Below are positions 7,901-64,000 of a stretch of DNA of 64,000 nucleotides, piece by piece. The translations under genes and the position numbers were made by a program. The stretch comes from Oasisia sp. SBJ-2009 (Eukaryota; Annelida; Polychaeta; Sabellida; Siboglinidae): contig OZ024858.1 in NCBI GenBank assembly GCA_964017155.1, positions 23,542,157 to 23,606,156 of the forward strand, read 5' to 3'. Position 1 is the stretch's first letter. Each line of letters begins with the position of its first letter. The notes below the pieces were generated by a model. That model was not told the origin of the DNA. It saw only the letters and a program-made list of their open reading frames with translations, and did no database searches.

Positions 7901-10900
7901 GACAGTGTACAGACGACAGGTGAAAAAGTTGCATGCCTTCATGATGCGACATCTGCGTTCGATCATGAAGATAACCTGGATGGACAAAGTGACAAACAAG
8001 GAAATACTCGAACGGACAGGGCTGCCATCTATGGAAGATCTTCTGAGCAGAAAGAATCTCCGGTGGACTGGACACCTCATGAGGATGTCATCAGACAGGC
8101 TACCGAAGCAGGTTCTCTACTCCCAACTGTCTTCTGGTCACAGAAAGAGAGGGCGCCCTCGTCTCCGGTTCAAAGATACCATCAAGAGAAACCTGAAGCT
8201 GAGAGACATAAAGATCGACTCCTGGACACCACTCTCACAGCAGAGAGACAAATGGAGAGCAAGAGTCAAGTGATGGAAGCAGTCTTTGTCGCTTCGCGAC
8301 CGACAGCATGATGATGATGATGATGATGATGATAATATAAATACACATGTATGCATTCACATTTGGACTAATGTTGAAAATGTAATTGTGATGATACATC
8401 TGCTAGCATTTGCTTTCAGTCATGTATATTTTATATGTAGCTAATATCCTCGGGATCCTGTGCCCACTAGTAAAACAAAACCATTTGTTTTTTGCTAGAA
8501 GCACATACCTTTTTGTTTTGATCGTAGGCCAACAATATAAATGCTGCTGTTGTAGTATGAAGTGGAACAAGACGCTGGTGACAGTGAAGCGACTTCATAA
8601 ACAGCCAGCAGGGGACAGCACTGTCGATATGCTCATTCGAGAAAACGACTACATGGCGTACGTTAATTACTTGTCTGTCTCGTCATTATAAAGTGAGGTA
8701 GTTGTTTGTCTGAGTCACGGTGTTTTGAGAAATGTGCAGGTTGTTGCGATGGTTTTGTAACAACTGCTAAAGAAAGAATTTACTTTTTCATTTATCTAAG
8801 GATTGTTGACATAGTAACTTGATATTATTAATAGGTGTAGTGTGGCAAACTCCTGCCTCGTGTGAGCAGTGTGCCGAATGGTGGTCAGTGATGTGACGAG
8901 AAGACTGAGATTGAGCCCAGTAACTAGAGCAGTACACTATTGAGAAAGCCCGGGTTCGAATCCTGTGCTGCTGAGTTGAACCTTGATGATTGAATGAATG
9001 AATGAATGAATGAATGAATGAATGAATGAATGAATGAATGAATGAATGAATGAATGAATGAATGATTGAATGAATGAATGAATGAATGAATGAATGAATG
9101 AATGAATGAATGATTTTTTTTTGAATCGTACAAAGCACATGTAAACAGTATGTTTAAACTAAAAATGTAACAGTCAATTAATTATATCATGTACGATTCC
9201 GGGCAGACAGTTGGTCAAGTCTGTTCAGGCTACGTTGCTCCATTTGATTCAGCTGTTTGAATTAGAACCTGGCTATAGAATGTGATGACTATTTGTGTAC
9301 AAAAAGGTTTAATGCCGAAATGGCAGCGTGGCTCAATGCTCCTGGAAAATTTAAAGTTATGTTTGATTGAACACATCTGCCAGGCAGTGTAGGGCACTAT
9401 TATATTAGCAGCCCTGAGGACGGACACTGCAGTATGTAGGAACTCATCCCCGGTGACGTTGCAGGCGACTACGACATCCCAACATCCTGCTGCTGATGGG
9501 CCTGTGTCAGACGAACAACCTCGAGGGCCTGGTGCTCATCTACGAACGCGTCGGCTGCGGCTCCCTCTTCCACTGTCTGCACCAGAAGGTGTGTGTGACA
9601 CTGCACTGGTGACGACTGCACCGCATCTCATGTTTGTCAGTATTAGCTGTGTGGTTGTGTTTGTAGTCGGAGTTACTCGGCAGGTACGGCGAGTGTGTTT
9701 GTGGTTGTGTTTGTAGTCGGAGTTACTCGGCAGGTACGGCGAGTGTGTTTGTGGTTGTGTTTGTAGTCGGAGTTACTCGGCAGGTACGGCGAGTGTGTTT
9801 GTGGTTGTGTTTGTAGTTGGAATCACTCAGCAGGTACAGTGAGTGTGTTTGTGGTTGTGTTTGTAGTTGGAATCACTCAGCAGGTATAGCGAGTGTGTTT
9901 GTGGTTGTGTTTGTAGTCTGAATCACTCAGCAGGTATAGTGAGTGTGTTTGTGGTTGTGTTTGTAGTTGGAATCACTCAGCAGGTATAGCAAGTGTGTGT
10001 TTGTGGTTGTGTTTGTAGTCGGAGTCACTCAGCCGGTACAGTGAGTGTGTTTGTGGTTGTGTTTGTAGTATGAATCACTCAGCAGGTATAGTGAGTGTGT
10101 TTGTGGTTGTGTTTGTAGTCGGAGTCACTCAGCAGGTATAGTGAGTGTGTTTGTGGTTGTGTTTGTAGTCGGAGTCACTCAGCAGGTACAGCGAGTGTGT
10201 TTGTAATCGGAGTTATTCAGCAGGTACAGCGAGTGTGTTTGTGGTTGTGTTTGTAGTCGGAGTCACTCAGCAGGCACAGCGAGTGTGTTTGTGGTTGTGT
10301 TTGTAGTTGGAGTCACTCAGCATGTATAGTGAGTGTGTTTGTGGTTGTGTTTGTAGTCGGAGTCACTCAGCAGGTACAGCGAGTGTGTTTGTAATCGGAG
10401 TTATTCAGCAGGTACAGCGAGTGTGTTTGTGGTTGTGTTTGTAATCGGAGTCACTCAGCAGGTACAGCGAGTGTGTTTGTGGTTGTGTTTGTAGTCGGAG
10501 TCATTCAGCAGGTACAGCGAGTGTGTTTGTGGTTGTGTTTGTAGTCGGAGTCACTCAGCAGGTACAGCGAGTGTGTTTGTAATCGGAGTTATTCAGCAGG
10601 TACAGCGAGTGTGTTTGTGGTTGTGTTTGTAGTCGGAGTCACTCAGCAGGCACAGCGAGTGTGTTTGTGGTTGTGTTTGTAGTCGGAGTCACTCAGCATG
10701 TATAGTGAGTGTGTTTGTGGTTGTGTTTGTAGTCGGAGTCACTCAGCAGGTACAGCGAGTGTGTTTGTAATCGGAGTTATTCAGCAGGTACAGCGAGTGT
10801 GTTTGTGGTTGTGTTTGTAATCGGAGTCACTCAGCAGGTACAGCGAGTGTGTTTGTGGTTGTGTTTGTAGTCGGAGTCATTCAGCAGGTACAGCGAGTGT

Positions 10901-30800: not shown

Positions 30801-33800
30801 ATTCATAGTACAATTTACATCATTCGAAGAACTACTGTCCGAGTCCACAGAAGTCATGATGGATTGTGAGCAACGTTTGTAGCTCCACCCCTGTTGGGTT
30901 CACGACTTGACCCTTCCGGAATTTGAGTGACAAATTTTGCGGCGATTTGAGTGACAGCTTCGAGATTATTATAAACATTCGACGGTTAAAATGATGAAGT
31001 CGGTTTTGCTACGTTAAAACATTTTTGGGTGGTCAGTACGCTATGGTAGGTAGTTTATAATGTCTATCACGATTTTGCAATAAATATAAAAAGTCATCTG
31101 GATGTTGTGTGCCTTTATTAAGTATGTTTGGCCAAACTGAACTAACTGTATAGATTACTGATTAGTATGATGGAAAAAGTGCTTCGCAGCTTACGATTCA
31201 GTAAAGGATCACGTTAGTGAAACGCATTTTGAAAGTTCTTATATTTTCCGTCCAATTCTGTTTAGGAATGTTTTCCTTCAGAGCACTCTTAGTGAAACGG
31301 TCCCCTGATCACGGTATCATCTTTAGTTCTGGAGTATTGTATTTTTTAGATTGTGGCCATTCTGTTTGTTACCATGGAAATGAGAGATTGGGCAGAGAAA
31401 AACACCTCTTTACTCAGTTACACATTACAACAATGTTATAGGTACATTAATAAAATCATATATCTCTGCCATCCCAGCAAACAAGGAACCATTTCTGAAC
31501 CAGTTGGCACATGTCATACTGGTTCATAATTGATACCGCTCCACCAGTACGTGTTTTCATCTGTATTCATGTGAATACACATGTTATGCCTGTTGTCACG
31601 AGTTTTGAACGAGTTTGACATGAGTCGTACTGAGTCAAAACAGGTTTCACTGGCACGTGAAAAACTCGTGATTTCACGGTAAACATGTGTCGACACAGCA
31701 AATGTATTCACAGAATTCACGTGAATTGAGCCAGTTGAACTCGTGAATTCACTTACAGAACATGTGAAATCACGGGTCATTGTTTGCTGGGATACCTACT
31801 CTTAAATATAAGAGTAGATTCTGTATAGTTAAGGATCTCGTCGTGAGCGTATTATCGTAGTGTGACCTTTAGTGTGGTCTGCCTGTGTCCAGTACAGCAC
31901 AGAGTACCGCCGCCCGACTCCACTAGTGACCACTGCTGCCACCACAGCGTCCGCCACTAGCTACCTGCAGAAGATTGTGCGCAAGTCGACGGAGAGGTTG
32001 TCAGGCATCATGCGGCGTTCACTGAGGCAGGACAGCACGGCCGACAGGTGACTGTTGACTTTTGTGTTACCTGTAGCAGACACATGCAAGCATCCTGTGT
32101 ATGACCGGCTTCTCTGTTACCTGTAGGCTTGCGAGAACATATGCGATAGACCGTCTCTGTAATACCGCTATCCCTATTTAAACATGTGGTGCACCTTCTC
32201 TGTTATAACTGAGACTAAACTAGATCCTTCTTTCAGTCTTGCTCAGTTTGACGTACCTAACTACAAGTCTTTTAGAAAAGACCGGGCTGGTCAAGGTGGG
32301 GGCATTCTGACTTACGTCAGATCTGATTTACCAACCCGTCAGCGCCCCGACCTTGAGTTACAACATGTAGAAAGTATTATAATTGAAACAACGGTTTGTG
32401 GCCGCAAATGGGCGATTGTCTGCGTCTATCGGCCACCTTCGATGGCTAATGCTAGTTTTATTGACGATTTTACTACATGTATTGATAAAGTTCATGTTCA
32501 TTTCGACAATATAATTGTCATTGGAGATTTAAACTATGACCTGTTGAAACCTGACAAATGCCAACCTTTGCATACGGTATGTGACATTTCTGACTTTACA
32601 AATCTTATCAAGACCCCAAAATGTTTCATGAAAGACGCGCACCCTTCACTTTTGGATGTTATCCTTACCAATAGACCGTCCCTTCTGTTTAACATCACAA
32701 ATTTCACATGCGGCATTAGTGACTGGCACAATATGATCTCCTGTGCTATCAAAGGCGCGGCTCCTCCACCAAACAAACGTAAAATTCAGTGTCGCTCATA
32801 CAAACATTTCGATGAGAAGGTCTTCAGTGAGGCAGTGGGTGTCATCCCTTTTGATGTTGCTTATGTTTTTGATGACGTGGATGACATCTACTGGGCTCAT
32901 GAAGTCCTCCTCACCGATGTTTTAAACGAGCATGCCCCGATCAAAGAGAAAACAGTCAAAACCAAGCAAACCCCATTTATGAACTCCAAACTTCGCAAAG
33001 CAGTCTTTAAAAAGTCAATGTCTTTCAACAAATACAAAACATGGCGTACTCCGGCCAACTGGGAAGCTTACCGTATGCAAAGAAATCTCTGTACAAAACT
33101 AAAACGGCAGTCAATAAGACATTACTTTTCTGAGAGGTGTGCCGGTGGACCCAAGTCAAAAGACTTCTGGCCCACCGTAAAACCATTTTTGTCAAACAAA
33201 GGGCTCCTAAAAGACCCTGTAATAATACTCTCAGAAAACGATAGTATCATATCAAACCAAATCTCTGTTGCGAGTACTCTAAATGAGTTCTTTGTAAATG
33301 CCGCCCAAGACATATCATCTGTACCTATCCCGGAAGACATTAAATCACCCCAGCATCAAAAAAATAACAGCCCACATCCCTGCTCCTACTGGTTTTGATT
33401 TTAGTCCCGTCACTTCTGAAAGCATATATACTTTCATCTCTAAATCTAACCCCAAAAAAGCCACTGGAGTCGATGGCATCCCTGCAAAAATCATAAAATC
33501 TTGCAGTAAATTAATTTCGGAACCACTAGCAAAATTAATAAACTACTCATTTGCGACCTGAGCCTCCCCAAACAGACTTAAAGAAGCACAAGTTATCCCG
33601 GTGTATAAGAAAAAAGATCCTTTAGACAAGCAAAACTACAGACCGATTAGCATTCTCCCGTTCATCTCTAAGCTGTTTGAAAACGCCATCAACTCCCAAT
33701 TAAGCACTCATTTTGAGAATTTGTTCAACCCTTTCCTCGGTGCTTTCAGGACAGGCATGGGGTGTCAGTCCACTCTATTGAGACTAGTAGAGGATTGGTG

Positions 33801-36800
33801 CAAGGCACTTGACAACCATAAGTATGTCGCAGCCATTCTCATGGACTTGACAAAGGCCTTTGATTGCCTCCCTCACAGCCTGCTCTTAGGTAAACTCAGT
33901 GCTTATGGCCTTTCTGATAAATCATGCAGTTTAGTTAGTAATTATCTCAGCAACAGGAAACAGCAAGTGAAATTAGGACCTCACTACAGTGAGTGGGCTG
34001 ACATCGTCAGAGGTGTACCCCAAGGCTCTATTCTTGGGCCTCTTCTTTTCAATGTTTTTATTAATGATATTTTTCACTTTTTGGATAAATCCTCTCTCTA
34101 CAATTATGCTGATGATAACACCCTGTCTTATGCTCATTCAAATTCGGACACTCTCATTCACACCTTGCAACAAGACTGTACTTCTACATTACAATGGTTC
34201 AATATCAACCAGATGAAGGCTAACCCATCCAAATTCCAAGCAATTAGCTTCGGCAAGAGGGGAACAAGGGACATAAAAAAAATTACTTTTGAAAACACTA
34301 CCATTCACTGTGAAAACTCTGTTGTCCTTCTCGGCATTGAGATTGATCATTCGTTAACTTTTAACACACATATCGCGAACATCTGCAAAAAGGCAGCTAG
34401 ACAGTTAGCGGTCTTAAAACGTCTCGGTCATCTCCTTACTCGTCAAGGGAAACTTACAATTTTTAAATCATTCATACCATCAAACTTCAACTACTCTCCT
34501 TTGATCTGGCACTTTTGTAGCCAATCTAGCACCAACAAACTTGAACAAATTCAGGAGAGAGCACTTCGCTTTATTTACAATGACTATTCATCGACGCATC
34601 ATGATCTTTTAAAGACCGCTAACACCGAACACCTCCACGTTAAACGGATAAAAGAAATGGCATGCGAAGTATTCAAAATTGTAAATAATATTGTTCCAAG
34701 TTTTATTCAAATTCTCATCACTCTAAAATGTTCCCAGTATTCCATGCGAAAGGAAAACACTGCAGTTGTCCCTAAGGCAAACACATCTAAATATGGACTT
34801 AAATCATTGTCCATGATGGGCCCCGGATCTGGAACAGCCTGCCAAATGAAATGCGAAAAACACTTAACTACGGCGAGTTTCGCAGCCAGATCCGGAACTG
34901 GGATGGCCCATCATGCAATTGCTCTATATGCAGGTAAACAGGTAACATCTAACATGTTTGTCACCATGCCAATATTATGAATATAGCTTTCATTGTATAT
35001 ATGCAATATGGATATGTGTAAAATATTTTTAATCCTTAAATTGATTCTTTAGATCTATTTATTTTTATGTTTTAAAGTATTTATTATTTTAATAAGTTTA
35101 GTCAATATACATCTCTACATTTATATTTATGCTAATGTCTTAAATTATATATTATTTCAATCTATTTTAACCCAATATACTTTGCATGTTTTATGTAAAA
35201 CAAATGAAAAAAAATATATATATATATATATATTATACATGCATGTATTATTATTATATTTATTTTGTACTCATTACCCTATTTTATATGTATAATTGCT
35301 GTCATTTTAAATACTCTGTATGCTTGTTATGGTTTTATGTCTTCTCGTTGCTTTATACTCGTTTTGTCGGAAAATAGCTCAGATGAGCTAATGTTGCCTA
35401 ATTATCATGTAACCGACGTTAAATAAAGCTTCTTGTATCTTGTTACCTGTAGTTCTGTGTGAATAAATGTGACACACCTTTGTTACCTGTATCCCTGTGT
35501 GAACGTGTGTGATACACCTGTGTTACCTGTACCTTCTGTTACCTGTAGCCCTATGTGAACATGTATGACATACCTGTGTTACCTTGTAGCCATATATGAA
35601 CACATGTAACACACCTGTGTTACCAGTATGTGAACATATGTGACACCTGTGTTACCAGTGTGATACACCGTCTCTGATATCTGTAGTGGTGTGTGAACAA
35701 ACGTGACACACCGTTGTTACCTGTATCCCTGTGTGAACATACGAGATACACCTTCTCTGTTACCTGTTGCCATGTGTGAACAAATGTGACACACCTTTGT
35801 TAGCTGTATCCCTGCATAAACATATGTAACACACCTTCTCTGTTCCCTGTAGTGGTGTGTTCAGGGAACGTTCCCCTTCGCCCACACCCCCAGCGCGACC
35901 GCCACTCCCATCCCGTCACGACATGTCATACCTGAGCACTAGCACAGACGGCTCCGAGTTGACACCTAGTGATGTCATCATCTCTACAGGTACAGACCTG
36001 CATGGACCACGTGCGCGCACACACATGCATGCACACACACGCATGCACACACACGCATGCACACATGGATACATAGATACACAATATCCATGAAAATGTA
36101 ATTATAATTGAACTAGTGTGTATGTTAGCTACTGCTTTCCTCCTAGAGTACTTGCCGTTTTTAGAACAACACTTTTAGAGATTAATCTGTGTTCAGCACA
36201 CTGCACGTAATTTGCGTCACAAGTGATATCATAGCAAATGTCAGTTATGAATACTCTGTGAAGTCCTCTTATTTGAATTAACGCCATCGTGAAAATGGGA
36301 AATTTTGCTTGTAAGTATATAAAAATAACATTTAAGGGGACACGCTCTCCTAAAACAGGTGTTTTAAAACAATTTTTTATTGATTTGTTCTCTATTTCCA
36401 TGATCTCGTGAGTTATACTTTTGTCTTAGACAGTAATAATACAATAGTTACACCTGTAAACAAACTAAAGTGTGAGTGACTCTGCTTCAGACGACTCTGA
36501 GGACGTGTCGGTGCTGGTGGACCGAGTCATCCACGACGCACACAAGCAGGTGACAGTGGAGGCCAGGAACAGTCGCGGCAGACTGAGTCAGGGGCAGGAC
36601 ACGCCAGGTGGGTGGACTGGCAGAGGCCATGGGAGAAGTGTGGGAGAGAGGGGGGAGAGATCAAAGAGAGGGAGGGAGCGGGGAGGGAGGGAGGAGGGAG
36701 AGAGAGAGAGAGAGACAGAGAGAGGGAGAGAGGAGAGAGAGAGAGGAGAGAGAGAGGAGAGAAAGAAAGACATAGAGAGAGAGAGAAAAGACAGAGAGAG

Positions 36801-43101: not shown

Positions 43102-45270
43102 TATATATATCCCAATAGAAGTACACCAACAGAATTACAAAAAGTACAACAATAGAAGCACAAGAAAAAGTTAAGGAATATAGAGACCAAGTGGAAGAGG
43201 AATACCAGCTGGAGGCAGACACTAATGCAGAAGAAAGTTGGTAAATATTTAAGAAAGTCGTCATGAGGGCAGCAGAAGAGATATGTGGAGCCACCAAAGG
43301 AGGGAAACACCTGGAGAGGGACACCTGGTGGTGGAATGAAGAGGTACAGGAGAGCCTGAGAAGGAAAAAGGAAGCATTCAAGAAATGGCAGATGCAGGGT
43401 GGAAACGAACTGAAGGAGGCCTATAAGAACATGAAGAGAGAGGCAAAAGCTGCTGTGGCCAAAGCTAAAAACGAGGCATACAAAGAGTGGTACGACAAGA
43501 TGGGAACAGAGGAAGGTGAGCGGTTGATCTACAAAGTGGCAAAGCAAAGGGCAAGATCAAGAAGAGACATTGGGGAAGTGAATGTGATTAAAGACCAAAC
43601 AGGGGATATGCTAACAGATGAAGTAAAGATCAAAGAGAGGTGGAGAGAGTATTTCAGCAACCTACTAAATGTAGAAAACGCCAGGGAACAGCTTGGAGAA
43701 GTACCAGCAGTAGAAGGACCAGTCCATGAAATATCAAGGGAAGAGGTGAAGAACGCCATAGAGAGAATGAAGAAGGGAAAAGCTCCCGGACGCTCAGGCC
43801 TCCCGATAGACCTTATCAAACACCTAGGGGAGAGTGGAGTGGACATGATGCGTGAAATACTGGAGAGAGTTTGGGAAGAGGAACAGATGCCGGTAGAGTG
43901 GAAGAAAAGTGAGATCGTCCCTATATACAAGCAAAAAGGGGACCCACTAGAATGTGGGAACTTTAGAGGCATTAAGTTGTTGGAACATGGGATGAAGATG
44001 TTTGAGAAGATCCTAGAGCGCAGACTCAGAAAACTGATCACAGTCAACAACATGCAATTTGGATTTAGTCCAGGGAAAGGTACAACAGATGCAGTATTTA
44101 TCATACTACAACTGCAAGAAAAACACCTAGAAGTACACAAGGATTTGTTCCTTACCTTCGTTGATTTAGAAAAAGCGTATGACAGGGTGCCCAGGGATCT
44201 GGTGTATTGGTGTCTGAGAAGGAGAGGGGTCCCAGAGAAGCTAGTGAGGCTAGTAGAAGCAACATACCGTGGAGCATCAACAGTAGTGAGAACCACGCAT
44301 GGCAGAACTGATGAGTTTCCCATCAAAGTTGGCCTACACAGGGATCAGGGCTAAGCCCATTCCTGTTTATCGTAGTATTAGATGTCATCAGCGAAGAGTT
44401 CAGATGCGGGTTGCCGAGTGAACTGCTGTTTTCTGACGATCTGGCAGTAGTAACAGACACAGAGGAGGAGATGCAGAGGAGATGGCTTGGATGGCAGATT
44501 GGGATGGAGAGCAAGGGACTAAAAGTCAATATCGGGAAAACGGAAGTGATGGTCAGCAGCAGGAGAGGAACAAAAGTAAACATCAAAGACAGCCAAGGCA
44601 CGAGCCTCAGACAGGTGAATAAATTCAAATATTTAGGTGTCAGCATCAGTGAAGAAGGAGGATCAGAGGAAGCAGTAAGAGCAAGAGTTAGTGCAGCGTG
44701 GGGCAAGTGGAGAGACATATCCGGAGTTATCAGTGACAAGAATATGCCAAGGAAATTAAAGATCAAGCTCTACATGACTGTCATTAGACCAGTACTTCTG
44801 TATGGAGCAGAATGCTGGACAGTTAGAAAGAAGGAGGAACAGATTCTCGAGAAAACAGAAATGAGGATGTTGAGAAGAATAAAAGGAGTAACATTGAGAG
44901 ACAGAATAAAGAGTGTGGACATCAGAAAGGAGCTAGGTGTGAGTAGCATACAAGAGAAAGTAAGAGAAATTAGACTACGCTGGTATGGACACATGCAGAG
45001 AATGGAAGAAAACGAAGTGAGAGCAGTTGGTGACATGAGAGTGCCAGGAAAAAGACCAAGAGGGAGATGGATGGATGGCGTCCAAAGGGATATGCAGGCA
45101 CCCCGGAGGATGCGCAGGACAGAACATTCTGGAAATCAAGAATTCGGGCCGCTGACCCCACCTAGTGGGAAAAGGCAAAGAAGAAGAAGTACACCAACCA
45201 AATGTACCAAGTGCCATTAGTGAAACATACATATTTCATGAATGTATGTATACATGCTAAATGTAGTGTG

Positions 45271-51474: not shown

Positions 51475-51689
51475 TCACCGTAGCAGGTCGACGAGGTCAA
51501 ACCGGCCGATCTCGCGGAGTAGTTCAACCAATTTGTCTCTCTCGCACGCAACTGGACACCTGAGTGGATCGACGCCGCATGCGTTGTACGCCGACTGCCA
51601 GTGACGCAGTAAGATCTCGCCCGCTGTCACCCGACAGGGATGGTGGTGTTGAAACGACTGGATGATCATCATGGCGTCGTAGTTTAGAC
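51475..51689 (-). CDS. DOK7/Death gene exon 9: Death domain C-terminal half
   Basis: Acceptor gtgctgtag (minus), phase 1 in, TGA at 51475-51477. Encodes LNYDAMMIIQSFQHH, AGEILLRHWQSAYNACGV and KLVELLREIGRFDLVDLLR. The hydrophobic spacing, the lone W in helix 4 and the IGR-D-LV--L end are typical of Death domains (UNC5/MyD88 type). Confidence 0.9.
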
Positions 51690-54600
51690 CTACAGCACAC
51701 AGACACACATTACCACAATGACAGCACACCTACAATTTTTGTAGAGCGCAGTGGCTCAGGGGTAGACCTCCGGATTCTTGACTAAGAGAACCCGGGTTCG
51801 AATCCTGTGCTGCGGTGTTAAAACCTTGGGCAAGTTTTTTCACTCTACATTGCTCCAGTTCACTCAGCTGTATAAATGAGTACCTGGCAATAGACAGTGG
51901 AGGATATGTGTACGTGCAGCCTTTCGCACATTAATTGTAGCATGTGGCTGGATGCTTCCCAGAGAAGTTGAGATGGTATTCGATTGAACAGGTCTGCCGG
52001 GGAAGTAATGTGTAAAAGCGCTTTGAGCAGTCCTATGGACTGGATACTGCGCTATATAAAAACTTACCTTTACTTTACCTAGGCAGACCCACCCAGCGTA
52101 AACATGTTGACATTTGCCATGCCTACACTAGCCTGATGTGTCCGTCTCAATCTTTGGAATGATTCATTGTACAGTTTTTCCTCGACATACAATCCACAGC
52201 TAATAAAATACAAATTTATGAGCCTCTATATTAAAAACAGGATGGCATGTACCAAATGCCACGTTATGATGAATGTAAAAGATATCCAGCATAGCCATTA
52301 AAACAAAATTATGTTGAGAGTGGGCGTGCTAGCATCAACAAACTTTGGGAGCATCCCGTAAATATTTCCACTAACATCAATTTATGCCTACTAAATTCAA
52401 GGAGCAGCTAAGTGCAACTCGTGAAATGCAACTAACGTAACTACGATGTCATAAGTACGCTTTATGAAACTGGCCCCAGGTGAACAACTACAGATGCATT
52501 GTTGCGCTTACATTTTTCCGGTCATTAAAAACGTTTCAACTGATGTTTCTGTGCATGTGCAATAAATGTAAAATCATCAATATCCAGCGAAACAACAAAG
52601 CATTTTCGGTATAAATGTCACGAGCTGTTCGTTAACTCTCCTGTGATGATTACTGTGAAGAGTTTCTTCAATGCAATAAAATATTACTTTAAAAGAAAAC
52701 TCACGGATTATGGTGCACTACTGTCACGTGATTTACGCTTGCTATCAAAATAGGCCTCAAAACTTGTTTGCCTCGTGTTAATTTGCGACAAATAACTTTG
52801 CTGAGACGTTATATACATCCTAACGAACAACCCATAGTATTTATACCACAAATGCTTTGTCATTTCGTTGCACATTGATGATTTTACATATATCGCGCAT
52901 GCGCAGAAACGCCAATCGGAACGTTTGTAACGCCGGAAAATGTAAGTGCTACAGCGTTCCTACCTATCTTCTCCGCCAGGGCCTTCCAGCCTTTGTCGTC
53001 ATCCTCCTGCGTGTACAGCCTCATGCACACCTGGATCCTGAGTTTGTAGGGCAGACGTAGGGTGTCGGGCAGCGGAGGGTGGTTGTTCAGTACGTCGTTG
53101 AGGCACCTGCAGATCTGTAGGTAAAATATTCAGTACTTTACAGCATGCTTCTGCCAAGTCGTTTGTGGATTGTTTCAGCGTAATCAAAAACTAATCATGT
53201 GACACGGTGGCGTAGTAGCACACATAACTGGTTGCACATAGCATGTGCAATTATTTCGGCTAAGTACTGTGACTACTTTAGCACTGAGTAAGTTACAGCA
53301 GAAGGAACAGAATGCATGTGGCATCACGTCATACTCATTTCATACGACCAGTCATGCCTAATGATTTTAAAATAAAGTTGTGGACAATCTTATCTGTCAT
53401 TGTAATCGGCTATCTTTTGGTTTTAAAACTATTTAAGTTCAAAAGATAAACATATTTCCACAGTTGTGTAATGTCTGGATAGTAATTAAAAACATGTTGT
53501 GCAACACCTTTAAGTGAATTACAGCGCAAAAAATCCATACACCAGATGCACTACAGACACACAGAAGCTCATGAATGATGTCTTAAATTATAAAATAAAG
53601 TTTGCTTTAAGTGCACATATACCCAACTGTTTAATGCTCTTCAAATTAATCGCAGAAAATCACATTTCACGTTATGAACAATCAATTTACATCAGTCTGA
53701 TTTCTAGTAAACAGCTTCAAGTTTTGACAAAATTAAGCTGCCACTTCTCTTCTGAAAGGTCTTAGATTGATTGTGAAAGCTTGGAGGACAAGATGCAAAT
53801 CATCACGAAGGAAAATGTAAATGTAATTATATTCTGCACATTCTCCATGTGTACACAGTTTAAAGCGACATGGTTCGTTCGTGGCTTTTTATTTTTATTG
53901 CAAAATTATGTTATACAGTATACATTATACCTATTATAGCATAAAGATAGTCAAAATATATTTTCATGTACTATTTAGGGGTTGAAAATAGACGCAGTAA
54001 GGGGTGCTTAACTCTGTTTACACATCGACCACGAGGCGTTTTTTAAACCGTTGTAGATGTGGCTAAATGAAGGAAATGCATGATCACGCGATGCAGTATC
54101 ACGTGAACACAATAAAAGTTGACGCCACTAACGCCACACCCAGCCAGGTGCATGCTCCCAGTTGGTAAAGGTCAAAGGGTGGGTGACAATCGCGGCGATT
54201 TGAGTGACAGCGTATATAAACATTCGACGTTTAACATTACGAAGTCAGTTCTGTTTTGATAAAACATTTATTGGTGGTCAGGACGCTACAATAGTTATAA
54301 CTTATACTGATTAACATGATTTTGTAATAAAGATAAAAAACCATGAACGGACCATGTCGCTTTAACTTGTTATTCTGGTAGCAACTCACACTTTCAGCGC
54401 TCCAATCGTCGGGACGCTGAGGCTGAATCAGGTCGTGTTCACTGATGCTGCGGTAGAGAGAGAACCCATTGACATGGCGGGATGCACTTGGTGACCTTGA
54501 ATGTGACCTTTCTCTTGGCTGTGTCTCCTGACCCCGGGAGTGGTGACCCTCGATGACATTGTCATCGAAACTACAGTCACAAAAAATATGGATCTCAAAT

Positions 54601-57594
54601 AGGTTGCCACTTATATTGGTGTGCAAGCATTGAGGACTATTTGTGATGGTAATGAGACAGTATTTATTTTAACTGCGAATATGTCACCTAGACAGATAGA
54701 GCAATAATTAAAATGTGTCTTATGTCAACATTTTATTATGGTTTTACCAAATTTATTTAGGCACGTTGCTATATGTCACACTCCTGTACAATAATAACTA
54801 TCAACGTATCTTATATATAATTATTATTCAACCATTCACACAATTCAATGTCAATCAATGGTCAAAAGCATTTCTTATTCATGTTTAATGTGAAATTGGC
54901 ACTGGGTGATCTGCAACAACCCATCCAAGTCAGTAGTTTCTACAATATGTGCCAGAGGGGGTTAATGTTGCCCCGAACCAGGATGTTTTATAAAGTTCAA
55001 GGTCTCGCTGACCACCAACTTTTCAGCACTAATGTAGGACACTGGACTGACCTTTGCGTTTGCGTCGGAAGTAACAAAGTGAGAGAACCAACGGGTTTCG
55101 CGTAACGTTTCTTCAATGTTGACCGCATGGTTGCCCGTGGCGACACCGTCTCAATGACCCCGCTACTGGTCAAGCCGCTACAATGGACCGCAGCTGTCCG
55201 CACTATCGTGTCCATCTGTGAGTAGATGGCGCGGTGGTTCTGTAGTCGCTTCACGTCGGCCGCCAGGTCGTTGATGTTGCACGAACAACTCGCAGTACCC
55301 AGGTTATCTATCGATCTCCGACACCATCGGGCAACACTGCACATGTCCGGGGGTTTGACTGTCGTCATGCTTGCGAGACAACCCGTCGAGCGTGACCGTC
55401 GCGAGAACGTCAAATCGTAAACACCAAGAAGCGCGTCGGCATGTTTATCATCATCACAAACGGTCAAATCCTCTTTAATGTCGTCACGCGACAGCCTCAC
55501 TTTGACAGCTGTTTCGAGTTCGGTTTGGCTGTGTTCGGACTCAGTGGATTCCATTGTTTCGTGCTCTGATTCAGTTGATATTCGGCTTTGTTCGGTTTCG
55601 TCGTAAGATGACTCCGTGAACTGAAAACTGGTGGTTTCGCTGCTACTGGACGCGGACGGCGTCTTACACGATCGCAAGTAGTTGGCACGAGCTGCCTCGA
55701 CCACTTTCATGACAGTGGCACAGTGCTTTGTCTGGAAGATGTACTCACCTGAAGGAAAGTCAGAAAGCAGTTAACAATGCACAGGAAATATATATATTCG
55801 GCTCACTAGTAAAAAAAAAAAAACTACACGACTTAAAAGTCTCAAACAATGTCTAGTTGAAAGTATTTATTGAATAGTGCAGTGAATATCAGAACCGGAC
55901 ATGTGATGTCTTTGGAACCATGTCACATTTGCCTGAGAATGTTAAACAACTAAACACTGTCAACATTCTCAAGACACACTTAAAAACACTTTTACTTTAA
56001 TAACCTTACTATATAGCCTACAAACGATTCATTAATACCGGGTTAAGTTTCATTCACATAAGACACACATTCCCAGGAAGCACAGACATGTAACACAACA
56101 GTTGTGACTTGTGAGTTATGGTATTAGTACCTGTGACATCTTTCTCTTTGGCGTACACCTTGAGTGTATTGTCGTTCTGTTGCTCACACCTCACATGTGA
56201 CAGTGACCACCTTCTCACGCTGTGGGGGGGCTTGTTGGTCTGCTCCAAACTGTTACTCAGAAGACTCAGCCCACTTTCGGTCAGTGCCAAGGTCACCTGA
56301 CTGCCCACTTCAAGGTCAGCGACATGAACCGTGCTACCAGCGAAGACCACATACCAGTTGGCCACTGAAACAGCAGATACATGTGTCTGCTTTAAAGGTA
56401 GCTATTAAACTGGTATATTTATGTGGTAAAAAACTATGGATCTAGTATCTATAAGTTTAATGAAATATTACCAATAAACTACTGACAACATTTCAATAAA
56501 TGAGTTATCACTTCAAAATTTATGATCCGAGGAATCCAACAAACCCTATGGCGTAATTTTGCAACTTGGCACATATGTATGAGACCTGACAGACTCAAGT
56601 GTACTCCTTACCACATTTCAGGGCCCCAAAGAGGGTTTGTCTCCAGTCACTCAGGGTGCTGCCGTGTATGGTCTGCTGCTGGCTCTTGTTAAACAGCATG
56701 AGGGTCTTGCCTTGAAGGCATATGGCAATGTAGGCCATCTTCGGTTGCTTTTGTCCCCTCCGCCTAAGAACATGTGCATAAGGATTGGTTATTTTCATCA
56801 GCGGTGGTAGACCAGAAAAATCATGACTTACACACATGAAATCAAACTCTCCCATCAATCCCATCTACTGATATCTGAACTCTACGTAAAATACAATGTG
56901 AACCGAAATCTGACCCACCTCAAAATTCTGTCTTGTGCAATAAAAACAATTTACCATGATTACCCCCTAAGGACCCCTCCATTTAAAACATAACCAATCA
57001 TGTTACTTTTTTTACAATTGCATCACTCAAAACCTCACATTAAGAAAGATTCAAAGCATTAAGTGCAAAAACGTTGCAGAATTGTTTGATCCGTTAAGTT
57101 TCCTGTCATTATTAGTATGAAAAGATGTGTAAATGTTTTCCTATTTGTTGTACATTCAATTGATAGTGATACCGAAGACCTACACTAGTACTAGTGCTGC
57201 CATCCAGTGATCAAACTTTTAGCCAGAATGACTGTCCATGAAACCATTATGCAACGAATCATCGATAATTATTTGCCATAATTTAAACCGATTTTTAATA
57301 CTACAAATGATGACAAACCAGCATCCTGTCATTGGCAAGGTCAGGTCTCCTTCAACAATGCCACAGAGGTCATGATGCCTCCACTCCGCTTTCTTTTTCA
57401 CATGTTTCTTTCGCGCCACTTCAGACAACAATAGGTGAAACGTTTCTGAGAATGTACAAACATATTTCATTAATCATCACATGAGTACCACCTATTGAAC
57501 ACATGCAAAAATATCCATATTAATATAATGTTTCTGGGCATATTTAGTAAATATGTTATATATATTATATATATATATACACATGTGTATATAG

Positions 57595-57626
<32 letters not shown>

Positions 57627-57958
57627 CATCATTGTGCAGCCAGAGTCCCATGGTTGGGCAAAGACCTCAGCATGCTGCTTCCACATGACATGCTAAGAAA
57701 ATTGGATTGGTTATAGATGAAGCATGCTCAGTAATGTAAACACATAAATTAAATTCTCATTGCTTATTTGTATGTCAATACATATTGAGTGCATATCTGA
57801 TGATAAGTTATTGAATAAATTATAGATTATATATGTTGTACATGTCCAGAAATATTGCTATATATATATATTAATTTGATTCTTAATTATTATTATATAT
57901 ATATATATATATATAAGTTATATATATATAATATATATATAATATATATTATATATTA

Positions 57959-58008
<50 letters not shown>

Positions 58009-60560
58009 TTATGTGTTTACGTTATTGAGCATGCCTCATCTATAACAAATTTTCTGAACATGTTATGTTAAACATAGTTAAACTTATGTAATATATATAA
58101 ACTATAACCATGCTATAAGCATGTATATACATAATCTATGCTACAACCAAAATGTTTGAGCATGTGCAAACATACATAATCTTCCTGTACACATAGCCAA
58201 TGTTTTTGAAAATGTACAAATCTACTGCATCTACGATTTATTTATCAATAATTTATCACGCAACACGCACGGAAGCACCGACAGGTTGACCTACAAGTAG
58301 ACAATGAGAATCACTAGTGTAATTAAACAACAATTCTGAAACCTAGTTAATTACATGTTAACGTTTTAACCCTAATTTGTGAATGGGTTTAATTTAAATT
58401 ATAGAGATGTTTTAATTTGCATGTTTAATATAGATGCATACTATATTTGTACACTGACCTATCCTATGCCCAAGGTAGTGATATTAGAAATTACCAGCTT
58501 AATCGTTTATGTCGATACAATTTACTTCCCATTATTAGGATATCATTTTGTCACTAAGCTATTTGTACAGCACTGTATTAAAATAATATACCCTGTACAC
58601 ATGCCAATAAACTGGTCAGGTAATGTCCTACCTTTTTGTGAATTTGCCTCTGTTTCAACTCCAAACTGTGCATACATCTGTCAAAGACAGAGAATCAACA
58701 ATGAAGTGTCAATAATATAATTAGTTATCGTTAATTAGACATACATGATAACTACTTGTCAACTACAACTGCACCCTTAACATCTTACTGAGACACAGGT
58801 GTCAACCCATCAACACACAAAGTGCACCCTTCACATGTTCTGTTCAACCTGTCAACACAGTAGGTAATATTCAAAACTAACAGGTTGATTAGTTACTATT
58901 TTATAGCAGAGGTGTATCCTTGTATTTGTTTAAAGCTTGAAGTCAACAAGATGTTCAAAAGAAAATTGACCAGTTAGTAAAACAATAATGGCATTGTTAC
59001 TCTCACAAGGGACAATTCCATCAACTGGTAAAGAAATATGGTGACTAAAGTCTAGTACTGAGACTAGTCTGCAAGGATCCTCTGCTTGCAAGCCAAAATC
59101 AAGATATGCTCTCCAGAATCAGTAGACCAGACTAGACATACACATTCTGTCAAGCATTCTGTTACTACAGCATTGGCAACTGGTCAAGTAGCATCACGAG
59201 TGAAGAGGAGGTAGACCAGTTGACATTGTGTGGTAATTTGTTTCCAATAATGATCAGTATTCATTTCAATTAAATTCAATTAAATAACTTTATTCTGGAA
59301 CATTGCATCCATATAAAAAGGTAAACTAAAGTATGACTAATAACTATACATAAAACATTTTCCGCCAATGGCGACACAGTGGTGAAGTATACAGAGCATC
59401 ACTATTCATGATACTCTGTAGTATTGCATTGCTCGATGTAGCTATAAACGTCAAGAAACTATACACATTTTTTCTTATTAATCTTTTACATGTGGGTAAG
59501 CCTGTTGACACAAACATATAACTTGCACTACAATCTCGAGGTTCATTGTATACAAATCTAAACACATTATTGTACGCTACACACAGTTTTCTCATTGACT
59601 CTGCTTTATAGCAACACCACAGCTGGCATGTGTATTATGAAGTACAGTAGGATTTAAATAAAGAATATTTTACAGATTCTGTACATATGTAAAACTTTCA
59701 GATCAAGGCATTACCCTGAGCATAAATTATCTTATATTGCCTAGATGTCATCATTGTCACATAGATGTTCTGTGATAATATACCCAAGATATTTACACTT
59801 ACTAACCCTTGGCAATGTTTCACCATTTAGCACAAAGTTTGGAATGTATATCTTTGAAGCTTTTACAAGAAAATATCATAACCTTACTGTTGACACTATT
59901 GTATTTAATATCATGTTCTTCTGATGTGTGTGTAGCTTGTATTGCAAACATGCTTCAAATAGAATCATTTTAAGAATTTTTCCAGTTAATCTGGTAGTGG
60001 CCACATACATGGGGTTTTCCCCGGAGATGAAATTCACCATGATGGGGGGAATGTGCCAACCATGCATGTTCAATCTGTAAAAACCAGTCAACCATGGAAC
60101 AACATCCTTTTCCAGCAAGAATACCATGGCTTTCATGCAGTGGTCATGGGCGCAACCGGACACAAATGTAGTAAAGACTGTAGAATCTAGAACTTTAAAA
60201 ATTGGCTATTTATAGCCTCAATGATTTGTACGCTGGAATTTGTGTTGACTGGTGACGGTTTTATCGTCACCGACACTGTCAGTGCTCTGCCTGTTTTCGT
60301 GTGTCTGGACAAGTTGAGAGTTAACACGGATACTGCACGATCATTCGACACACTTTTTAGTGTTAGCCACAATTTCATAAGTCGCCACTGACACATTGTT
60401 GACAAACAAAACAAAAAGGCCACTCCTAAACTGTGCTAAAGTAAAAGTTGGCGGTCGGGGAGGTCCACTACGATCTACGTACCCGTTTAGGTTTGCACGA
60501 GTTTTCTCCGCAAGAGTAGTAAATCTCTCCCTTTATCAAAGTGTTCGTCGTCACCTCCAT
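51475..60560 (-). CDS. DOK7-like PH-PTB adaptor with C-terminal Death domain (whole gene)
   Basis: Nine in-phase exons (60560-60483, 58677-58632, 57445-57319, 56763-56612, 56364-56131, 55748-55052, 54570-54390, 53114-52964, 51689-51475), 1,881 coding nt, about 626 residues, ATG to TGA. Residues ~8-134: PH domain ordered as in DOK7 (LIKGEIYY, HDLCGIVEGD, YIAICLQGKTLMLF, DWRQTLFGAL). ~135-240: IRS-type PTB (WYVVFAG, LALTESGLSLL, RRWSLSHVR, GEYIFQT, VMKVVEAARANYL). ~240-505: low-complexity Ser/Thr/Glu linker. ~525-626: Death domain (GWKALAEKIGLN, IGRFDLVDLL). Known DOK proteins are receptor-proximal tyrosine-kinase adaptors; Death domains mediate homotypic assembly in apoptotic and innate immune signalling. 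The fusion and its function are inference. Small exons 2 and 3 are the least certain. Confidence 0.8.
51742..52082 (+). mobile_element. tRNA-headed SINE, most complete copy
   Basis: Head GCAGTGGCTCAGGGGTAGAC (A-box region) and GGTTCGAATCC (B-box at 51793-51803), body TTCACTCAGCTGTATAAATG, GACAGTGGAGGATATG, ATTAATTGTAGCATGTGGCT, tail AAGCGCTTTGAGCAGTCC and ACTGCGCTATATAAAAACTT. It lies antisense in the last intron of the DOK7/Death gene. Confidence 0.87.
52964..53114 (-). CDS. DOK7/Death gene exon 8: Death domain N-terminal half
   Basis: Acceptor tttacctacag, donor gtagga; phase 0 in, 1 out. Encodes ICRCLNDVLNNHPPLPDTL, RLPYKLRIQVCMRLYTQ and DDDKGWKALAEKI. GWKALAE is the helix 2-3 signature (W-x-x-LA) of Death domains. 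Confidence 0.9.
53861..54364. mobile_element. TIR element (~504 bp)
   Basis: Ends TAAAGCGACATGGTTCGTTC and, inverted, GAACGGACCATGTCGCTTTA; pairing extends inwards through a TTTTATTTTTATTGCAAAAT-like stretch. TA on both sides is compatible with a TA target duplication. Non-coding. A partial relative is at 30937-31095. Confidence 0.8.
54390..54570 (-). CDS. DOK7/Death gene exon 7: Ser/Arg linker
   Basis: Acceptor tgtgactgtag, donor gtgagt; phase 2 in, 0 out. Encodes PRERSHSRSPSASRHVNGFS and LYRSISEHDLIQPQRPDDW. Low complexity; RSHSRSPS is a possible phosphorylation cluster. Confidence 0.8.
55052..55748 (-). CDS. DOK7/Death gene exon 6: PTB end and linker
   Basis: Acceptor tttccttcag, donor gtcagt; phase 1 in, 2 out; 697 nt. 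Begins GEYIFQTKHCATVMKVVEAA, the last strand and C-terminal helix of an IRS-type PTB domain. Then a Ser/Thr/Glu-rich run (STESEHETMESTESEHSQTE) with short EHET/SEH repeats, then a more ordered Cys-containing part (CSVARWCRRSIDNLGTASCS). Confidence 0.88.
56131..56364 (-). CDS. DOK7/Death gene exon 5: IRS-type PTB core
   Basis: Acceptor ctgctgtttcag, donor gtacta; phase 1 in and out. Encodes VANWYVVFAGSTVHVADLEV, QVTLALTESGLSLLSN and HSVRRWSLSHVRCEQQ. The beta-strand pattern and W-x-L-x-x-(L/V)-R are those of the DOK/IRS PTB; in that family arginines in this area contact phosphotyrosine. Confidence 0.88.
56612..56763 (-). CDS. DOK7/Death gene exon 4: PH domain second half
   Basis: Acceptor catgttcttag, donor gtaagg; phase 2 in, 1 out. 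Encodes KMAYIAICLQGKTLMLFNKS and LSDWRQTLFGALKC. In DOK7 the matching part reads as AIVCL...IML followed by a W-containing C-terminal helix. The PH helix here keeps its W. Confidence 0.87.
57319..57445 (-). CDS. DOK7/Death gene exon 3: PH domain middle
   Basis: Acceptor acattctcag, weak donor gtttgt; phase 1 in, 2 out. Encodes FHLLLSEVARKKHVKKKAEW then RHHDLCGIVEGD, which follows DOK7's order (strand 3, basic loop, then the D-(I/L)CG segment). The basic loop could contact phosphoinositides. The 3' border is uncertain; no better in-phase donor was seen. Confidence 0.7.
57687..58065. repeat. Inverted repeat around an AT-rich core
   Basis: Arms of about 65 bp: left GGTTATAGATGAAGCATGCT...AACACATAAATTAA, right the complement TTAATTTATGTGTTTACGTT...GAGCATGCCTCATC. 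The centre is mostly (TA)n (57889-58004). In intron 2 of the DOK7/Death gene. Confidence 0.8.
58632..58677 (-). CDS. DOK7/Death gene exon 2: small PH exon
   Basis: Acceptor gtctttgacag, donor gtagga; 46 nt, phase 0 in, 1 out. Encodes MYAQFGVETEANSQK, which takes the place of strand 2 and the following loop of the DOK7 PH domain. Short, so it rests on splice sites, phase on both sides and domain order. Confidence 0.65.
59270..60180 (-). mobile_element. Decayed non-LTR retrotransposon, 3' end
   Basis: Minus strand, intron 1 of the DOK7/Death gene. Frameshifted pieces of a LINE reverse transcriptase: CLQYKLHTHQ, HDIKYNSVNSKVMIFSCKSF, KYLGYIITEHLCDNDD, and the open C-terminal segment 59595-59344 with MRKLCVAYNNVFRFVY, CSASYMFVSTGLP and RKNVYSFLTFI. 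The 3' tail has AATAAA (complement of 59289-59294) and an AATTGAATT-type repeat. Several frameshifts and stops; not functional. Confidence 0.75.
60483..60560 (-). CDS. DOK7/Death gene exon 1 with start codon
   Basis: ATG at 60560-60558 is the first Met in an open frame that reaches back to at least 60656. Encodes MEVTTNTLIKGEIYYSCGEN and SCKPKR, then donor gtacgt; phase 0 out. LIKGEIYY is the beta1 strand of a PH domain, as LVEGQVKL is in DOK7. Confidence 0.75.
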
Positions 60561-62010: not shown

Positions 62011-64000
62011 ATACATTACATTATGCGTGGATGCTAGCTGCCTATACAATGATGCTATACATTACATTGTGCGTGGATGCTAGCTGCCTATACAGTGATG
62101 CTATACATTACATTGTGCGTGGATGCTAGCTGCCTATACAATGATGCTATACATTACATTGTGCGTGGATGCTGGCTGCCTATACAGTGATGCTATACAT
62201 TACATTATGCGTGGATGCTAGCTGCCTATACAATGATGCTATACATTACATTATGCGTGGATGCTAGCTGCCTATACAATGATGCTATACATTACATTGT
62301 GCGTGGATGCTGGCTGCCTATACAATGATGCTATACATTACATTGTGCGTGGATGCTGGCTGCCTATACAGTGATGCTATACATTACATTATGCGTGGAT
62401 GCTAGCTGCCTATACAATGATGCTATACATTACATTATGCGTGGATGCTAGCTGCCTATACAATGATGCTATACATTACATTATGCGTGGATGCTAGCTG
62501 CCTATACAATGATGCTATACATTACATTATGCGTGGATGCTAGCTGCCTACACAATGATGCTATACATTACATTATGCGTGGATGCTAGCTGCCTACACA
62601 ATGATGCTATACATTACATTATGCGTGGATGCTAGCTGCCTACACAATGATGCTATACATTACATTATGCGTGGATGCTAGCTGCCTACACAATGATGCT
62701 ATACATTACATTATGCGTGGATGCTAGCTGCCTACACAATGATGCTATACATTACATTATGCGTGGATGCTAGCTGCCTATACAGTGATGCTATACATTA
62801 CATTGTGCGTGGATGCTGGCTGCCTATACAGTGATGCTATACATTACATTGTGCGTGGATGCTAGCTGCCTATACAGTGATGCTATACATTACATTGTGC
62901 GTGGATGCTGGCTGCCTACACAGTGATGCTATACATTACATTGTGCGTGGATGCTGGCTGCCTATACAATGATGCTATACATTACATTGTGCGTGGATGC
63001 TGGCTGCCTATACAATGATGCTATACATTACATTATGCGTGGATGCTAGCTGCCTACACAATGATGCTATACATTACATTGTGCGTGGATGCTGGCTGCC
63101 TACACAATGATGCTATACATTACATTGTGCGTGGATGCTGGCTGCCTACACAATGATGCTATACATTACATTGTGCGTGGATGCTGGCTGCCTATACAAT
63201 GATGCTATACATTACATTATGCGTGGATGCTGGCTGCCTACACAATGATGCTATACATTACATTGTGCGTGGATGCTAGCTGCCTACACAATGATGCTAT
63301 ACATTACATTGTGCGTGGATGCTGGCTGCCTACACAATGATGCTATACATTACATTGTGCGTGGATGCTGGCTGCCTATACAATGATGCTATACATTACA
63401 TTATGCGTGGATGCTGGCTGCCTACACAATGATGCTATACATTACATTGTGCGTGGATGCTGGCTGCCTATACAATGATGCTATACATTACATTGTGCGT
63501 GGATGCTGGCTGCCTATACAGTGATGCTATACATTACATTGTGCGTGGATGCTGGCTGCCTATACAATGATGCTATACATTACATTGTGCGTGGATGCTG
63601 GCTGCCTATACAATGATGCTATACATTACATTATGCGTGGATGCTGGCTGCCTACACAATGATGCTATACATTACATTGTGCGTGGATGCTGGCTGCCTA
63701 TACAATGATGCTATACATTACATTGTGCGTGGATGCTAGCTGCCTATACAATGATGCTATACATTACATTGTGCGTGGATGCTGGCTGCCTATACAATGA
63801 TGCTATACATTACATTATGCGTGGATGCTGGCTGCCTACACAATGATGCTATACATTACATTGTGCGTGGATGCTGGCTGCCTATACAATGATGCTATAC
63901 ATTACATTGTGCGTGGATGCTGGCTGCCTATACAATGATGCTATACATTACATTGTGCGTGGATGCTGGCTGCCTATACAATGATGCTATACATTACATT
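62011..64000. repeat. 46-bp minisatellite, >42 copies, runs off the window
   Basis: Unit TGCTATACATTACATTGTGC, GTGGATGCTAGCTGCCTATA, CAATGA. Only four positions vary (TTGTGC/TTATGC, CTAGCT/CTGGCT, CTATAC/CTACAC, CAATGA/CAGTGA), and they are linked in blocks. All units seen are 46 bp. The right end is outside the window. Confidence 0.98.

Follow-up and report, generated by a model that had tools for sequence, protein, structure and literature searches.

A divergent DOK7-type gene with a predicted Death domain at its C-terminus in a tubeworm-type annelid

The window analyzed here, a 64,000-nucleotide stretch of the genome of the siboglinid annelid Oasisia sp. SBJ-2009 (contig OZ024858.1, positions 23,542,157 to 23,606,156), carries on its minus strand a gene in which regions resembling the PH and IRS-type PTB domains of DOK7 are followed by a long linker and a C-terminal Death domain (Table 1). 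DOK7 is a muscle-synapse adaptor, a PH-PTB activator of MuSK, and the Death domain is a module that builds cell-death and immune signaling platforms. As a rule, DOK proteins are regarded as one wiring system and Death-domain adaptors as another. The fusion gene (60560-51475) begins with a start codon at 60560 and has a stop codon ending at 51475, and the nine exons of the original prediction were confirmed at the genome level: they join in compatible phases into a product of exactly 626 residues, and GT..AG borders are present at 8/8 introns. Exon GC content is 0.45-0.58, with the exception of exon 2 (0.37), and that of the introns is 0.26-0.41. No Rfam RNA was found at gathering scores between 51000 and 61000, and among eight further ORF stretches in the window no Pfam family scored over its cut-off, with one DUF4614 match at E 0.0061.

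Table 1. Exons, domains and single sites of the fusion gene (positions within the window; P0001 is the Lamellibrachia satsuma relative)
Feature	Position	Strand	Basis or remark
Exon 1 (aa 1-26), start codon, first strand of predicted PH	60483..60560	-	17/26 identical in P0001
Exon 2 (aa 27-41), predicted PH, 46 bases, phase 0 in / 1 out	58632..58677	-	Length and phases equal those of the 46-base exon of own-genome DOK7; absent from P0001
Exon 3 (aa 42-83), middle of predicted PH with DLCG motif (G70 on DOK7 G64)	57319..57445	-	Entry phase 1, as in own-genome DOK7 exon; 9/42 identical in P0001
Exon 4 (aa 84-134), end of predicted PH, C-terminal helix Trp124	56612..56763	-	28/51 identical in P0001
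Exon 5 (aa 135-212), bulk of PTB	56131..56364	-	49/78 identical in P0001; phases equal those of own-genome DOK7 PTB exon
IRS-type PTB (aa 154-232), across intron 5	55690..56308	-	Pfam PF02174; hhalign
Codon of R193, at DOK7 R158 position	56189..56191	-	Ungapped alignment anchored on W187/W152; Trp in P0001
Codon of K209, at DOK7 R174 position	56141..56143	-	Alignment; Arg in P0001, Gln in own-genome DOK7
Exon 6 (aa 213-444), PTB end and linker	55052..55748	-	109/232 identical in P0001
Conserved linker block (aa 402-440)	55066..55182	-	34/39 identical in both species
Exon 7 (aa 445-505), linker	54390..54570	-	25/61 identical in P0001; donor read through in P0002
Exon 8 (aa 506-555), first part of Death domain	52964..53114	-	16/50 identical in P0001, which is without the first part of exon 8
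Exon 9 (aa 556-626), remainder of Death domain, then stop codon	51475..51689	-	52/71 identical in P0001
Death domain (Pfam-matched aa 545-625), across intron 8	51481..52997	-	Pfam PF00531; hhalign

The same arrangement is also predicted for another species, Lamellibrachia satsuma, where a collinear protein (P0001; E=3.4e-156 over 100% of the query), recorded as hypothetical and lacking any precomputed Pfam domain, spans the PTB-like, linker and Death segments and matches exons 1 and 4-9. Its model has no exon 2 and is incomplete in exons 6 and 8. Since exons 2 and 3 are barely or not aligned in P0001, they draw their support instead from the length, phase and position that they have in common with the conventional DOK7 of the same genome. 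A further model, P0002 (306 aa), from a relative, contains the exon 6 stretch missing from P0001. P0002 stops shortly after exon 7, and the exon 7/8 join of P0001 differs from ours, both of which could suggest two adjoining genes, one DOK7-like and finishing with exon 7, the other made of exons 8-9 and encoding the Death domain. Polyadenylation-like hexamers in intron 7 (54272, 53899, 53893, 53635) would fit such a division, although they say little, as the short intron 6 also has four. We consider two genes improbable: the order is common to both species with a single predicted protein across it, exons 7 and 8 join in phase at their donor and acceptor, no Met precedes the Death domain edge in the frame of exon 8, and P0002, both ends of which are apparent intron sequence, resembles a truncated model. 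All nine exons would be carried by a single mRNA.

The Death segment was matched by Pfam Death (PF00531) at E=0.0005 on a fragment and at E=0.00039 in P0001, with scores ranging from 16.1 to 20.9 bits (16.1 on the full protein) against a curated cut-off of 22.6. Profile comparison with hhalign gave 96.2% over 77 columns and a score of 52.7, compared to at most 17.7 in 200 shuffles. With a profile built from 16 Death domains of the same genome and 7 human ones, hmmsearch scored the fusion protein at 26.7 bits and its ortholog at 30.2, while the best of 2000 shuffled sequences reached 6.8 bits. The profile match that had been predicted is present and lies far over shuffled controls, though under the Pfam curated cut-off, and on these comparisons the segment can be considered a well-supported member of the Death superfamily. 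The match extends over the whole of the domain found in MyD88, NF-kappaB p105, ankyrin and UNC5, with 27% identity to MyD88, one of the seven members of the profile; relative to MyD88, the fusion Death domain has about 10 extra residues between helices 4 and 5. In those proteins the usual partners are TIR, Rel/ankyrin repeats and ZU5-UPA, whereas here the Death domain sits behind PH-PTB. The nearest of 30 own-genome Death domains compared (L012, at C1:17195635) is 33% identical over 66 columns.

The PTB segment was recovered by Pfam IRS (PF02174) at E=0.0004 and 20.8 bits on a fragment and at E=0.0039 and 17.6 bits at full length, the curated cut-off being 22. With hhalign, it scored 28.0 over 74 columns, compared to at most 17.1 in 200 shuffles, so that the predicted profile match holds against shuffled controls, by a wide distance, but not at the Pfam curated cut-off. 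Full-length P0001 has no Pfam IRS match, and IRS E values for its fragments (0.05-0.065) are no better than adjacent chance matches (Atracotoxin 0.034, FBA 0.089-0.13). Taken together, these profile results place the segment among IRS-type PTB domains, a predicted membership less strongly supported than that of the Death domain. The sub-threshold Pfam scores, the poor AlphaFold models (pLDDT 29.7 for the full protein and 50.3 for the Death part) and a best Foldseek E of 3.2 might be taken to mean that the domains were over-read, the C-terminus being another helical bundle or the N-terminal half not a PTB, but we find this very improbable.

No Pfam PH match was found in the fusion protein, either at full length or in fragments, and the PH half of the gene therefore rests on its alignment to DOK7 and on gene structure. 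Aligned to human DOK7, the PH-PTB region reaches z 4.9, with 0/500 shuffles as good; for DOK5 and DOK1 the values are z 1.8 (22/500) and z 1.9 (18/500), making DOK7 the best-scoring of the three DOK proteins tried. As in DOK7, a predicted PH is followed by an IRS-type PTB. Single segments align weakly to DOK7 (31/500 shuffles as good for PH only, 17/500 for PTB only), and alignment to the DOK7 exons of the same genome (C5:43808610, 43767657 and the PTB exon at 43.752 Mb) is also weak (z 2.0, 36/1000). Of the PH-PTB-Death architecture originally predicted, PTB homology, Death homology and the DOK7-like PH-PTB alignment stand, while a PH fold is suggested by kinship and goes unseen by Pfam.

Our intron argument is based on the own-genome DOK7. 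Several features recur in the fusion gene and this DOK7: a 46-base exon (phases 0/1), a following exon that is entered in phase 1, an intron of phase 1 lying 11 residues past the PH-helix Trp and a PTB exon that is left in phase 1. The fusion gene thus has the DOK7-type structure of a 46-base exon with phase 1 introns before the PTB exon and at its exit. A DOK4/5-like PTB exon (L008) exits in phase 2, unlike the DOK7 type; the donors at both of the compared exits, own DOK7 and L008, were picked by eye. An extra phase 2 intron inside PH and the terminal Death domain set the fusion gene apart from DOK7. For the human gene, one report places c.653-1 in intron 5 (PMC10117378).

Searching the genome with human DOK7 1-220 yielded eight matches at E<=10, among them C5:43767425 (E=3.6e-7) and C5:43751875 (E=3.3e-5), and the fusion gene was not one of them. 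Because a conventional DOK7 lies on the same contig, about 20 Mb away, we rejected the fusion gene as the DOK7 ortholog of this species. The description "DOK7-like" is accurate for the type of PH-PTB and does not extend to orthology. Judged by sequence, this genome has a second DOK7-type gene beside the conventional one, and the fusion gene is that divergent copy, having gained a Death domain. An exon-by-exon search, which also missed the fusion gene's own Death domain, found no Death domain within 2 Mb of the conventional DOK7.

A recent multigene family was likewise rejected, as there is no other copy in the genome: all eight genome matches to the fusion gene at E<=10 are its own exons. Among 5.77 billion proteins, only P0001 and P0002 were found, in a search where matching requires shared five-residue words and one pass scored the best 7994 candidates. 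Within the reach of that search, this scarcity speaks against an old, widespread invertebrate gene that is unannotated owing to fast divergence. Such a history would be in keeping with both domains scoring under Pfam cut-offs, which leaves P0001 unnamed by automatic annotation, and we view it as rather unlikely. The statement in the original prediction that no described DOK/IRS protein with a Death domain is known agrees with the accessible portions of the open-licence literature searched, in which there was no natural PTB-Death protein. The closest precedent is synthetic: the PTB- or SH2-DED chimeric adaptors of Howard et al. 2003, which are reported to redirect tyrosine kinase signaling to apoptosis (as cited in PMC2575513). 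These chimeras are alike in joining a tyrosine-kinase-reading domain to a death-fold domain, and differ in being engineered and in combining an ordinary phosphotyrosine-binding domain with a death effector domain, whereas the fusion gene is natural, has a Death domain and is at most a candidate for phosphotyrosine binding.

DOK7 R158 and R174, the two arginines that hold phosphotyrosine, correspond to R193/K209 in the fusion protein, W/R in P0001 and R/Q in the own conventional DOK7, and the LRRYG motif has become VRCEQ and VWCEL in the first two. The pair is not fully kept as it is in DOK7. At eight other PTB loci in the genome, read by eye, Arg is present at the R158 place in 7/8 and at the R174 place in 5/7 long enough. 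Phosphotyrosine binding by the fusion protein cannot be assumed from these residues, and the claimed direct link between phosphotyrosine signaling and Death-domain assembly is unsupported in the form given. With the pair only partly kept, the receptor signal may or may not be a phosphotyrosine. The PTB may instead read no phosphotyrosine, binding an unphosphorylated tail, for which the PTB-like domain of talin is a precedent, or scaffolding, which would make the protein a constitutive or inhibitory Death adaptor. The substitutions in both species favor this, as does their contrast with most other PTB loci, and the R/Q of the own DOK7 indicates a pocket that varies in this lineage. In the other direction, a basic residue (K/R) occupies the R174 position in both species, and the fusion protein has Arg at the R158 position. 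We give this alternative serious weight, somewhat short of an even chance.

On balance, we think it reasonably probable that the locus holds one real single-copy gene encoding a divergent DOK7-type PH-PTB with a tail ending in a Death domain, and that its product works as an adaptor. The PH-PTB tandem, probably as a dimer, would place the protein at the membrane on a receptor tail, as in DOK7. Packed densely there, the Death domain would recruit or co-assemble with another Death-domain protein, and receptor occupancy would be passed to a platform of the NF-kappaB/caspase type. The fusion protein may in this way wire surface receptors to the cell-death or immune machinery. A more specific version is tentative and in our estimation doubtful: a tubeworm-type annelid adaptor would turn receptor tyrosine kinase state directly into Death-platform assembly, having arisen from a DOK7 duplicate and Death exons in a genome rich in Death domains. 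Elsewhere we found that arrangement in engineered form only.

A natural fusion in two species offers a testable case of exon shuffling joining the DOK and Death systems, and even if the PTB does not bind phosphotyrosine, the Death fold has gained a new domain partner. One of the two carrier species is a vestimentiferan tubeworm, a group studied for cell-death control around bacterial symbionts. For the Paraescarpia genome, it has been proposed that innate-immunity families are expanded, that apoptosis is suppressed and that the symbionts are controlled through a cell-death pathway (PMC8476170). A link between the fusion gene and symbiont-related cell death is speculation.

Within the linker, the conserved block (aa 402-440) has no Pfam match. 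YxxP is a tyrosine motif for Crk, and one lies in this protein at Y428-A-K-P, where P0001 has F-A-T-P. Motifs so short arise by chance; another, Y388-S-Q-M (YxxM), is kept in both species.

The window gene's nine exons are bordered by GT..AG at all eight introns with compatible phases, and they join into exactly the 626 residues of the original prediction. GC content is higher in exons than in introns, except for the small exon 2. The product was searched in six frames against its genome (764 Mb, 33 contigs), in which the window lies at C5:23542157-23606156. Each of the eight matches at E<=10 fell on an exon of the window gene itself, and at that sensitivity no further copy is visible.

Among 5.77 billion proteins, the sole full-length relative found was LSAT2_000814 (P0001; 538 aa, E=3.4e-156) of the tubeworm Lamellibrachia satsuma, which is collinear with the window gene from exon 1 through the final residue. 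On the strength of this one relative, the window's species is probably an annelid. Identities over exons 1-9 are 17/26, 0/15, 9/42, 28/51, 49/78, 109/232, 25/61, 16/50 and 52/71, so this model lends little support to exons 2 and 3; a linker block at residues 402-440 is identical at 34 of 39 positions. The P0001 model uses a different frame across the exon 7/8 junction and is missing portions of exons 6 and 8, probably through gene-model error. When the two proteins were aligned and used as query, the one addition among the matches listed was P0002 (ENA, 306 aa), almost identical to P0001 wherever both are present. It spans exon 6, including the stretch absent from P0001, and exon 7, and both its ends extend into apparent intron sequence. 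The exon 7/8 join of the window gene is predicted, and the way P0002 ends is a reminder not to take it as settled. A protein search with residues 385-626 found no further relatives.

Pfam IRS (PTB) matches residues 154-232 (E=0.0039 in the full protein, 0.0004 as a fragment); it has no match in full-length P0001, and on pieces of P0001 its E of 0.05-0.065 is no better than chance, since unrelated families score 0.034-0.13 there. Comparing the two-species alignment with a PTB set of 13 DOK, FRS and IRS sequences, eight of them from the same genome, gave a score of 28.0 over 74 columns, against 17.1 for the top of 200 shuffles. Pfam matched no PH domain in the window gene. In global alignment, residues 1-240 scored above all 500 shuffles against human DOK7 (z 4.9), compared with z 1.8 for DOK5 and 1.9 for DOK1. 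Taken separately against DOK7, the PH piece was equalled by 31 and the PTB piece by 17 of 500 shuffles, neither convincing alone.

It is the predicted gene structure that decides kinship with DOK7. Human DOK7 located a conventional DOK7 gene on the same contig (PH exon E=3.6e-7, PTB exon E=3.3e-5). Its exon 2, picked from AG/GT-bordered candidates of seven lengths (40 to 58 bases), has the same length and phases as exon 2 of the window gene. The following exon also enters in phase 1 (D|RLHISLY versus E|TFHLLLS), and in both genes PH closes with a phase 1 intron exactly 11 residues past the helix tryptophan. The PTB exons of the two genes also both end in phase 1, at positions that agree to within one residue (conventional DOK7 donor chosen by eye). 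Elsewhere in the genome, a DOK4/5-like PTB exon (L008) has the matching entry phase, but its exit, with the donor again chosen by eye, is in phase 2. The window gene differs from conventional DOK7 by one additional phase 2 intron within PH. Direct alignment of the two is weak (z 2.0, equalled by 36 of 1000 shuffles), suggesting an early split or fast evolution of one gene.

The PTB domain aligns with that of DOK7 without gaps from W187/W152, placing R193 and K209 at DOK7 R158 and R174, the pair that in DOK7 acts in phosphate binding. Lamellibrachia has Trp and Arg at these places, and eight other PTB loci of the genome, read by eye, have Arg at the first in 7/8 and at the second in 5/7. PMC10117378 lists R158Q as one of the DOK7 missense mutations in congenital myasthenia. 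The original prediction joined phosphotyrosine signalling directly to Death-domain assembly; since these residues make phosphotyrosine binding possible yet not to be assumed, that mechanism is best treated as a hypothesis.

According to PMC10117378, DOK7 is anchored to the membrane by its PH domain, and its PH-PTB tandem is required for dimerising and MuSK phosphorylation. If the PH-PTB half of the window gene docks as a dimer in the manner of DOK7, the attached Death domains would cluster. Proximity drives Death domain assembly. The most economical account is that the product may act as an adaptor between a receptor tail and a Death-domain platform. Engineered PTB- or SH2-DED chimeras reportedly steer tyrosine kinase signals to apoptosis (PMC2575513), indicating that such receptor-to-death-fold wiring is workable in principle. 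Both parts, a DOK7-type PH-PTB and a Death domain, are of known kinds, and searches of open-licence papers on Death domains with PTB, DOK7 or domain combinations turned up no natural PTB-Death protein. The combination is of real interest, being present in two species and directly testable.

Features of the window and of other loci in the same genome
Feature	Position	Observation
Window gene, minus strand	60560 to 51475	Start codon to stop codon
Intron 8 element	about 51750-52080	tRNA-like box sequence GGTTCGAATCC opens a putative tRNA-derived SINE (by eye); no Rfam match
Long ORFs	7074-8273, 32163-34980, 43245-45220	Resemble LINE-type reverse transcriptase pieces (by eye)
Tandem array	62011-64000	46-base unit, 43.3 copies, 97% matching, extends to window end; produces overlapping chance ORFs
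Conventional DOK7, exon 2	C5:43808610	46 bases, phase 0 in, 1 out; WKSRWCILKKLSPVA
Conventional DOK7, PTB	C5:43751875 region (L042)	Arg at R158 place, Gln where human DOK7 has R174
Clustered PTB (IRS) matches	C11:32.895-32.930 Mb (L004, L006, L007)	Four matches; the three that were read resemble DOK proteins and carry IRRYG or IRRCG, and the tails of two also contain YAKVNKP motifs
Similar Death-domain genes in local clusters	C3:46.92-46.97 Mb, C6:23.91-24.10 Mb, C13:1.37-1.39 Mb	Often two Death matches per open frame in the C3 and C13 clusters
Long tandem repeat	L039:1-3700	Both strands open (SLTRSLPSSVAI... / DEGSDLVREMAT...); ~5 kb from the Death domain that best matches the window gene's
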